Part shown: piece after piece, positions 15,076 to 52,984 of the stretch
Layout: every line of letters starts with the position of its first letter
Numbering within the stretch: position 1 is the first letter of the stretch
From: Gammaproteobacteria bacterium
GTDB lineage: Bacteria > Pseudomonadota > Gammaproteobacteria > JAABTG01
DNA length: 64,000 nucleotides
Assembly: GCA_034522055.1 (NCBI GenBank)
Contig: JAXHLS010000002.1
Span: 806,001-870,000, forward strand
Direction of reading: 5' to 3'
Notes under the pieces: generated by a model
Told to the model about the DNA's origin: nothing
The model's input: only the letters and a program-made list of their open reading frames with translations
The model's database searches: none
Made by a program: the position numbers and the translations under genes

Positions 15076-17225
<2,150 letters not shown>

Positions 17226-17298
17226 GGCGCGCGATGGTACCAGAAGCCGGTCGGGTGCAGGCTTTGCCCGCGGGCCCGGCACCCCCTATACTCGCGCG

Positions 17299-17425
17299 TA
17301 ACGTGAAAGTCGCGAAGCACGAACTCCCCCTCTCCCTCTGGGAGAGGGATGGGGTGAGGGAACGAACATGGCGATACGCGCTCCTCTGTCATCATCTTGG
17401 GCGGCGCGTATCGCCATGAGAGTTA
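17299..17425 (-). repeat. 127-bp hairpin-rich interspersed repeat, copy A
   Basis: Near-identical over 127 bases to copies at 38,648-38,774 and 52,858-52,984, here in reverse orientation. It contains a 14-bp inverted repeat (ATGGCGATACGCGC and its complement, about 21 bases apart) and a 9-bp hairpin (CCCTCTCCC/GGGAGAGGG). It ends two bases before the mature 5-prime end of tRNA-Leu. No coding sequence is seen; the size and structure suggest a non-autonomous mobile repeat. Confidence 0.85.
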
Positions 17426-17427
17426 GC

Positions 17428-17514
17428 GCCGAGGTGGCGGAACTGGTAGACGCAGTGGACTCAAAATCCACCGGTGGTGACACCTTGCGGGTTCGAGTCC
17501 CGCCCTCGGTACCA
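17428..17514 (+). tRNA. tRNA-Leu (anticodon CAA)
   Basis: An 87-nt class II tRNA. The acceptor arms GCCGAGG and CCTCGGT pair (one G-U), followed by discriminator A and an encoded CCA (17,512-17,514). The anticodon loop CTCAAAA gives CAA, reading UUG. It has a long variable arm (CGGTGGTGACACCTTG) and the TTCGAGT T-loop. A strong terminator hairpin follows within five bases. Confidence 0.97.
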
Positions 17515-17518
17515 TTCA

Positions 17519-17585
17519 GCCCTTTCCCGGCACCCCTGGCCAGGCCAAAGGCCCTGGCCAGGGGTGCCGGGAAAGGGCAATTTTT
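17519..17585 (+). terminator. Strong hairpin terminator after tRNA-Leu
   Basis: Perfect 26-bp inverted repeat (17,519-17,544 with 17,553-17,578) separated by eight bases and followed by TTTTT at 17,581-17,585. The stem is far longer than most intrinsic terminators, so the element may have arisen from a palindromic repeat that now ends tRNA-Leu transcription. Confidence 0.8.
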
Positions 17586-17745
17586 AATTCTGAATTTTGA
17601 ATTGGGTGCGGGCCGCCTGGGACAGGGGCGGGGGGCAGGGGCCCTCAAGTGGGCGGGGGTTCTGCCGCAAAGCCCCTGAAACGGGGCGTGCGTCCTTCAA
17701 GATTGGCATGCGCAGACGATTCTCGACGATACCTAAGGAAATCCC

Positions 17746-18414
17746 ATGAGTGATAATGAACAGGCGTGGCAGGCGGCCAGCCAGATGAAGGCCACCAATG
17801 TGACGTGGCACTTCAGCCACGTCGGAAGGGAGAGCCGCGAGCAACTGCTCAACCAGAAGGGGGCCACCCTGTGGTTTACCGGGTTGTCGGCCTCGGGCAA
17901 GAGCACCATCGCCTTCACCCTGGAGCACCTGCTCATCGAACAGGGCTACCTGCCCTACGTGCTGGACGGCGACAACGTGCGCCATGGCCTCAACAAGAAC
18001 CTCGGCTTTTCCGCCGACGACCGTGCCGAGAACATCCGCCGCATCGGTGAGGTGGCACGCCTGTTCGCGGATGCCGGGGTCATCACCATGACCAGCTTCA
18101 TCTCGCCCTATCGTATGGACCGCGACCGGGTGCGGGACCTCCATGACGAGGCCAACGTGCCCTTCGTGGAGATCTTCGTGGACACCCCCATCGCGGTGTG
18201 TGAGGACCGCGATCCCAAGGGCCTCTATCAGCGCGCCCGGGCCGGGGAGATCAAGATGTTCACCGGCATCGACGACCCCTACGAGCCACCCCTGGAGCCC
18301 GAGATCGTCATCCGCGCCGACCAGATGGACCCGCCGGGTTGCGCCCGGGTCATCATCGAGCGGCTCCAGGAACTGGGCATCACCAACGTCAACGGCGCCC
18401 GCCCCGCGGTCTGA
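17746..18414 (+). CDS. cysC: Adenylylsulfate (APS) kinase
   Basis: Phosphorylates APS to PAPS, normally for assimilation or sulfation. The 222-residue protein has Walker A GLSASGKST, the LDGDNVRHGLNKNLGFS substrate block, RAENIRRIGEV, and the lid region FISPYRMDRDRVRDL with CEDRDPKGLYQRARAGEI. An N-terminal stretch of about 35 residues precedes the kinase core, as in many free-standing CysC. No cysN, cysD or sat gene is adjacent. A hairpin repeat follows the stop codon. Confidence 0.94.
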   Translation: MSDNEQAWQAASQMKATNVTWHFSHVGRESREQLLNQKGATLWFTGLSASGKSTIAFTLEHLLIEQGYLPYVLDGDNVRHGLNKNLGFSADDRAENIRRIGEVARLFADAGVITMTSFISPYRMDRDRVRDLHDEANVPFVEIFVDTPIAVCEDRDPKGLYQRARAGEIKMFTGIDDPYEPPLEPEIVIRADQMDPPGCARVIIERLQELGITNVNGARPAV

Positions 18415-23464: not shown

Positions 23465-23526
23465 GGCTCGTCAGCAGAATTCATGGGTGTTGAGAGAAGA
23501 ATTTCCTCTCGCCAAGAACGCCAAGG
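23465..23526 (+). repeat. Direct repeat, left copy
   Basis: About 62 bases beginning GGCTCGTCAGCAGAATTC and ending CTCTCGCCAAGAACGCCAAGG. The same pattern recurs at 30,924-30,990 in the same orientation, so the two copies bracket the gene module 23,558-30,754. No coding capacity is seen. Confidence 0.7.
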
Positions 23527-30923: not shown

Positions 30924-30990
30924 GGCTCGCCAGCAGGATTCGAGAGTGTAAAGAGAAGAAAATCCTCTCGCCAAGGCCAAGAGCGCCAAG
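30924..30990 (+). repeat. Direct repeat, right copy
   Basis: About 67 bases starting GGCTCGCCAGCAGGATTC and containing AATCCTCTCGCCAAGGCCAA, clearly related to the copy at 23,465-23,526 with small insertions. It lies in the 451-base gap between the DUF1329 gene and dsrE2, which holds no gene. Confidence 0.65.
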
Positions 30991-38647: not shown

Positions 38648-38774
38648 TAACTCTCATGGCGATACGCGCCGCCCGAGATGATGAAAGAGGAGCGCGTATC
38701 GCCATGTTCGTTCCCTCACCCCATCCCTCTCCCAGAGGGAGAGGGGGAGTTCGTGCTTCGCGACTTTCAGGTTA
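38648..38774 (+). repeat. 127-bp hairpin-rich interspersed repeat, copy B
   Basis: Same 127-base element as 17,299 and 52,858, starting TAACTCTCATGGCGATACGC and ending GACTTTCAGGTTA. It lies eight bases after the dsrP stop codon and before dsrN, hence inside the dsr operon transcript. Its 14-bp and 9-bp inverted repeats would form hairpins in that RNA. Confidence 0.85.
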
Positions 38775-52857: not shown

Positions 52858-52984
52858 TAACTCTCATGGCGATACGCGCCGCCCAAGATGATGAAAGAGG
52901 AGCGCGTATCGCCATGTTCGTTCCCTCACCCCATCCCTCTCCCAGCGGGAGAGGGGGAGTTCGTGCTTCGCGACTTTCACGTTA
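52858..52984 (+). repeat. 127-bp hairpin-rich interspersed repeat, copy C
   Basis: Third full copy of the repeat. It starts nine bases after the Cas6-like stop codon and ends 119 bases before the cysteine-free DsrC gene. The 14-bp inverted arms and the 9-bp CCCTCTCCC hairpin are intact; the loop differs by one base from copies A and B, leaving the stem pairing unchanged. Confidence 0.85.

Follow-up and report, generated by a model that had tools for sequence, protein, structure and literature searches.

ERIC elements of the enterobacteria (also termed IRU or RU-1), as described in PMC2229807 and PMC10969869, are 127 bp in length with TA ends, form strong RNA stem-loops and occur in tens to hundreds of mostly intergenic copies, and in these respects they are like the repeat that precedes a tRNA-Leu gene in the DNA analysed here. 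They also have a duplicated TA target, for which the sites of the present repeat give a mixed picture. Their terminal inverted repeat is given as 7 bp in a review table, versus 4-5 bp (TAAC/GTTA) in this repeat. The Correia elements of Neisseria, known also as NEMIS, likewise have TA ends (PMC2229807, PMC10969869), and they resemble the repeat in falling into two size classes through an internal insert, 155 and 107 bp in Correia versus about 199 and 127 bp here. However, Correia elements feature 24-bp terminal inverted repeats and internal promoters, whereas the repeat has terminal inverted repeats of 4-5 bp and no promoter-like site, and its assignment to Correia/NEMIS was rejected on the length of the terminal inverted repeats. 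REP and BIME sequences, which are associated with a RAYT gene, are built from a palindrome of 20-40 bp with a GTAG-type tag, in contrast to a 127-bp unit with fixed ends in the present case.

QMITE1 of Coxiella burnetii is unlike the repeat in its length of 300-400 bp, its 2-3 nt repeats of variable sequence and its own sigma-70 promoters, as these are described in PMC5896051.

The tRNA-Leu(CAA) locus

The window, meaning the whole stretch of 64,000 nucleotides that was analysed, contains three copies of the repeat, the first of which is located immediately upstream of tRNA-Leu(CAA). The favoured reading, with a probability of roughly 0.85, is that a MITE-like element was inserted between the tRNA and its promoter, and that the old promoter would still drive the tRNA with a longer leader to be removed by RNase P. 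The insertion, the empty site in a sister genome and the intact promoter-like site in front are read directly from the sequences. The features are as follows, in window coordinates.

17428-17514, + strand: tRNA-Leu, anticodon CAA, encoded CCA (ARAGORN; Rfam RF00005, 56.5 bits)
17299-17425, + strand: repeat, short form, 127 bp, TAACGTGAAAG...GAGAGTTA (window and genome copies)
17264-17292, + strand: predicted native promoter of tRNA-Leu, TTGCCC-17-TATACT (consensus scan; kept in G001)
17323-17355, + strand: hairpin 1, CCCTCTCCC...GGGAGAGGG.TGGGGTGAG (predicted fold, copy alignment)
17367-17418, + strand: hairpin 2, CATGGCGATACGCGC...GCGCGTATCGCCATG, with 16 consecutive pairs (one U-G) and 3 inner pairs
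17419-17427, + strand: 9-nt stretch AGAGTTAGC from hairpin 2 to the mature tRNA, its last two bases outside the repeat
17520-17585, + strand: long G+C-rich inverted repeat, then CAATTTTT, likely terminator of the tRNA transcript (read from the letters)
16188-17225, - strand: queA-like gene, divergent from the tRNA (GTG start at 17282 in the ORF list; ATG at 17225 chosen by reading)
17746-18414, + strand: cysC-like gene, downstream of tRNA-Leu (ORF list)
38648-38774, - strand: second window copy of the short repeat, site empty in G001
52858-52984, - strand: third window copy of the short repeat, site empty in G001

The preliminary description had placed the end of the repeat two bases before the tRNA, and these coordinates were confirmed by ARAGORN, Rfam and the pairing of repeats within the window: the last repeat base, 17425, is separated from the tRNA start at 17428 by GC (17426-17427). 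The upstream ORFs of genuine look, which are presumed to be queA-like, tgt-like and secD-like (the downstream ORF presumably being cysC-like), are all encoded on the strand opposite to tRNA-Leu in the ORF list. As the queA-like gene is divergent from the tRNA, no same-strand gene reads in from that side, and read-through from an upstream gene as the source of tRNA-Leu was rejected. The likely terminator was not called by a terminator scan of 17200-17650, perhaps because three bases part its stem from the T run. A hairpin with different letters is also located after tRNA-Leu at the equivalent place in G001.

No second full-length match to tRNA-Leu(CAA) was found in its own genome, and UUG, the codon read by this tRNA, accounts for 19/300 leucine codons in eight nearby gene frames, three of which are cut at guessed starts. 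Together, these two observations suggest that the gene is probably needed in modest amount.

The promoter and the repeat-free locus of the sister genome

In a consensus scan of 17200-17650, the sigma-70-type site TTGCCC-17-TATACT (+ strand, score 9/12) was the sole promoter-like site, with a mean of 0.1 in shuffled sequences, and none was located within the repeat, near the end of which the preliminary description had seen no strong promoter either. Its -10 hexamer TATACT ends 6 bp 5' of the repeat and 135 nt 5' of tRNA-Leu. Transcripts usually start 6-8 nt past the -10, and the spacing of 6 bp puts the predicted start (about 17298-17300) at the beginning of the repeat. The initial bases of the transcript, which are relevant too, would now come from the repeat. 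Similar matches precede other tRNA genes of the genome, for example TTGCCC-17-TATCTT and TTGCCA-17-TATATT. When 30 of the 47 tRNA loci were read at a threshold of at least 7 of 12, the 26 genes that come first in their cluster had a -10 ending 9-40 nt away in 18 cases, 96 nt away in one and no match in seven, the last of which makes the promoter scan an imperfect guide.

The only other genome of the genus in the comparison, G001, has the equivalent locus, with identities of 85.5% to the left and 86.1% to the right of the insertion site and a tRNA-Leu 99% identical to that of the window. Its promoter block GGCTTTGCCCGCCGGCCCGGCACCCCCTATACTC agrees with the window in 33/34 letters, the single change being in the spacer, and the dozen bases just 5' of the block are less alike. 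The repeat is absent there, with just 11 nt between TATACT and the tRNA, and bases -3 to -1 of the tRNA (AGC) are the same in both genomes. Among 36 relatives searched, 32 gave a tRNA match and 29 loci were read, comprising nine with a TAA anticodon, one without a call and 19 with CAA; of the latter, 18 (G001 among them) have a promoter-like -10 whose end is 9-21 nt away from the tRNA, by loose criteria (8 of 12) without a shuffle control.

These comparisons bear on what the preliminary description had proposed for the promoter. It had assumed that the natural promoter lay where the repeat is now, but an intact one is located directly upstream at 17264-17292 and is nearly identical in G001, so it was not displaced by the repeat. 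Its suggestion that the tRNA is read from further upstream holds in so far as an upstream start is supported, but the shift only equals the length of the repeat. Likewise, the proposal that the repeat supplies the promoter gained no support from the scan. Other MITEs do carry sigma-70 promoters, as described for Correia subtypes and QMITE1 (PMC10969869, PMC5896051), and the repeat might accordingly give tRNA-Leu a new promoter while the old one is dead; with no promoter-like site in the repeat and an upstream promoter that is intact and kept, this is highly improbable.

The repeat family

The tRNA-Leu copy matches the two other window copies at 96% over 17299-17431 and at 98% over 17299-17425. 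A pattern of the 3' end, searched with up to 3 mismatches, gave 94 matches in the 5.14 Mb genome and none with the backward control; three of the 94 seem to come from the opposite arm of hairpin 2, within copies that the count includes already. As the similarity search for copies scored the best 40 candidates per genome, the copy number rests on this pattern and on the loci read. The 5'-end pattern gave 110 matches (control 1), versus 94 for the 3' end. In total, at least 89 copies were read, 41 of them short (about 127 bp, 25 exactly 127) and 48 long (about 199 bp, 31 exactly 199), a set from which nine partial matches and the copy on contig C1 (5' end 46, 3' end 244) are left out, further 5' fragments standing outside all copy counts. 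The copies are 85-100% equal to their own consensus, 68/89 of them at 95% or above, and the tRNA-Leu copy equals the consensus of the 41 short copies at 125/127 positions. In the long form, the loop of hairpin 1 is enlarged by about 73 bp. This extra segment carries small hairpins of its own, CAAATCCGTCGGGAACGGATTTG and GCGCCTTGGCGC (loci L115-L165, e.g. L131).

The terminal inverted repeat TAAC/GTTA comprises 4 bp, or 5 bp if the preferred flanking T and A are counted, with T preceding the element in 75/83 copies and A following it in 55/77. For one copy (L022), the matching site in G001 is exactly empty and shows one TA, and tandem head-to-tail copies (L008, L149 and L162) have one TA in common, GAGAGTTAACGTG. 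These head-to-tail junctions look as if one copy had been inserted at the TA end of another. The third window copy fits better with insertion without TA duplication, the flanks of window copies 1 and 2, L028 and L158 are too diverged to judge, and the site of L122 has been replaced in G001. At tRNA-Leu the TA duplication is not exact, since the short leader differs between the window genome and G001.

With its many near-identical dispersed copies and a length within 100-400 bp, the repeat has the form by which MITEs are defined, and 127 bp leave no room for a gene. Judged by its sequence, it is most likely a MITE-like, small non-autonomous element with a TA target. A profile search for a transposase partner of one family (PF13358) gave five matches, all below the cut-off, and the repeat ends were not found at up to 5 mismatches in 1.5 kb on either side of these; two of the loci are alike over all 3.3 kb, so that their ends may lie further out. 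A partner of the IS630 type gained no support from this search, in which the weak matches all concern one frame of 497-538 aa in surroundings, as far as covered, without repeat ends. This frame occurs five times (L189-L193), with weak DDE_3 similarity below the cut-off, and perhaps represents an insertion sequence.

Beyond the genus, the repeat was found in none of the three other genomes of the family. A scan of named genomes with a 17-base piece of hairpin 2 gave 29 stretches from scattered organisms with one match each, which are taken as chance matches, and near relatives may be absent from that scan. Plasmids yielded one short match, to hairpin 1 only, and phages yielded no match to the repeat. 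An identity with ERIC by sequence was rejected on a comparison with E. coli genomes rather than with an ERIC consensus, none of the 5426 genomes giving a match with at least 80% query cover at E values up to 10. Two matched places in E. coli were read and contain only the CCCTCTCCC-type palindrome. Hairpin 1 resembles the G+C-rich palindrome CCCTCTCCC..GGGAGAGGGTTAGGGTGAGGG, intergenic in E. coli and presumably boxC-like, whereas the ends of the repeat and hairpin 2 are not alike.

A sister repeat of about 120 nt in G001 is similar in its 5' end TAACGTGAAAGTCGCG, the type of hairpin 1, the presence of a second hairpin and the GTTAG end, and it differs in the letters of the linker and of hairpin 2, matching at 76-81% over about the first 75 nt (best 40 candidates). 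The sister repeats are the loci L173-L186 of G001, one of which is located about 880 nt downstream of its tRNA-Leu. Truncated pieces also occur in the window genome: L194, L195, L200 and L201 keep only the first 23-50 bases or so of the repeat and continue with other DNA. The window also contains, at 23465-23516 and 30924-30975, another repeat family, whose hairpin is of the GGCGAGAGGAAATTCTTCTCT type (opposite strand), and at L194 the 5' fragment of the MITE-like repeat runs directly into a sequence resembling this type.

The family is evidently old in the genus, since G001 bears one full copy elsewhere (93%) and many sister-type copies among the best 40 candidates scored, which is what can be said for the view that the repeat is ancestral at the tRNA-Leu locus and was precisely lost in G001. 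Against such a loss, the tRNA-Leu copy equals the consensus at 98.4%, compared with a difference of about 15% between the flanks in the two genomes. The element is also absent in 7/7 cases in which the flanks of one of the 89 copies were located in the part of G001 examined, which covered about 350 kb and six further loci and kept gaps below 150 nt, so that a G001 site filled with the long form would be missed. The other 18 tRNA-Leu(CAA) loci comprise 17 with a short predicted leader and one without a promoter call. Ancestry followed by precise loss is thus extremely unlikely.

Position of the copies relative to tRNA genes and promoters

For distances to tRNA genes, the partial copy L040 was added again, giving 90 copies to be compared with 47 tRNA genes. 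A copy is present within 120 nt on the 5' side in three cases, at 2, 79 and 117 nt. The latter two, L040 (79 nt, upstream of tRNA-Thr(CGU)) and L132 (117 nt, upstream of tRNA-Leu(UAG)), are in the same orientation as the tRNA, one of them is cut short, and in both a promoter-like site lies between element and tRNA, leaving the element outside it. Only tRNA-Leu(CAA), 1/47 tRNA genes, has a copy between promoter and tRNA, and on this count the candidate role of the element as tRNA-targeting was rejected.

The broader proposal, that the family targets promoters or tRNA genes and that tRNA-Leu is a preferred site, draws on the junctions of the elements, 3/178 of which have a promoter-like site ending 2-14 nt away versus 2/3520 control places, a comparison that is not a fair rate because the controls, taken at distances from 100 nt to about 2 kb, probably lie mostly in coding DNA. 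The remaining 175 junctions have no such site, and with only three of 90 copies within 120 nt 5' of the 47 tRNA genes, two of them outside the promoter-like site, targeting is very unlikely. If 89 copies were placed uniformly at random, the probability of at least one hit to the 10-nt leader zones of the 47 tRNA genes would be 0.008; mostly intergenic insertion would lift this several-fold and the case was picked after the fact, so the value is not called targeting. The tRNA-Leu case is read as one chance insertion that was tolerated.

The predicted folded leader and its proposed processing

The repeat has a predicted fold of -64.2 kcal/mol (z -5.6 versus shuffled sequence), and in the predicted fold of the whole precursor its hairpins form separately from the tRNA, hairpin 2 being set apart from the expected RNase P cut by 9 bases (AGAGUUAGC) with weak pairing or none. 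With and without the repeat leader, six of the seven acceptor-stem pairs had pairing probabilities of 0.93-1.00, and the seventh stayed at 0.49 throughout the three models. None of these models gave a full cloverleaf as the minimum-energy fold of the tRNA, leader or none, and the leader test accordingly speaks for the acceptor stem only. On the third option of the preliminary description, a role of the hairpin in 5' processing, the models suggest that this stem is left undisturbed by the repeat and that the cleavage site stays accessible. A leader that pairs with the 3' RCCA is reported to be harmful in E. coli, and shortening the leader of one substrate to 2 nt lowered kcat/Km 5.2-fold (PMC9433436). 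By analogy with this standard, the new leader may be no worse, and perhaps better, than the short one.

The leader hairpins might also have been co-opted, altering processing through RNase III or RNase E entry, transcription rate or stability, and thereby the supply of tRNA-Leu(CAA). Precedents are described in PMC2229807 and PMC10969869, where RNase III cuts transcripts with Correia elements and Yersinia transcripts become open to RNase E at a site exposed by ERIC, and the 5.2-fold cost of a 2-nt leader implies that a longer one could help. In the 89 copies, moreover, 2.6% of the cells in the stem of hairpin 2 are off consensus, versus 10.5% for its unpaired loop positions. The stems, however, are conserved in copies at any location, which marks a trait of the family, and changes on both sides of a pair occur in only 2/1688 cells of hairpin 2, indicating conservation and hardly covariation. 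As the predicted acceptor stem is unchanged and the arrangement was found at only 1/47 tRNA genes, co-option is regarded as unlikely.

A further idea, highly speculative, arises because the element landed where a stable-RNA promoter would begin its transcript: the highly folded leader (about 128 nt, with the full MITE sequence) that RNase P would free with every tRNA-Leu made might act as a small RNA that pairs with transcripts of the other 88 copies in opposite orientation or competes for the RNases that cut them.

A probably tolerated insertion

In the favoured explanation, a MITE-like element was inserted 6 bp past the -10 hexamer and 2 bp before tRNA-Leu(CAA). RNA polymerase would still use the native promoter, but its start point would now fall at the beginning of the repeat, and the leader of the precursor would measure about 128 nt (some 130) instead of about 4 nt. 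The two leader hairpins would form without touching the tRNA fold, and RNase P would cut at the usual place, in the free 9-nt stretch that follows hairpin 2. Since neither the promoter core nor the bases next to the cut site (A, G and C at -3 to -1) were altered, the insertion was presumably tolerated. Going by the sequences, a special role in tRNA expression or processing does not seem to be needed to explain the insertion, which is neat but of an ordinary kind.

As a natural experiment, the locus bears on the distance that is acceptable between a tRNA and its promoter and on the amount of folded leader that RNase P accepts, and since the sister genome has the same promoter and tRNA with a short leader, a direct comparison is possible.

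Comparison with known promoter-adjacent elements

Among the matches listed in a literature search that covered few subscription journals, no report was found of a bacterial tRNA separated from its promoter by a MITE. Insertion directly downstream of a promoter has, in contrast, been described for other genes. One Correia copy is located directly downstream of the mtrCDE promoter (PMC10969869), and copies of QMITE1 lie directly downstream of the promoters of the small RNAs CbsR3 and CbsR13, which, as far as PMC5896051 describes them, end within the element, whereas the repeat here precedes the tRNA on the predicted transcript. The present locus suggests that tRNA genes, too, can receive such an insertion, as small RNAs and mtrCDE are known to do. 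In form, the repeat is closest to ERIC by its length and TA ends and to Correia by its two size classes, and what is particular here is the tRNA as the gene downstream of a promoter-adjacent MITE.
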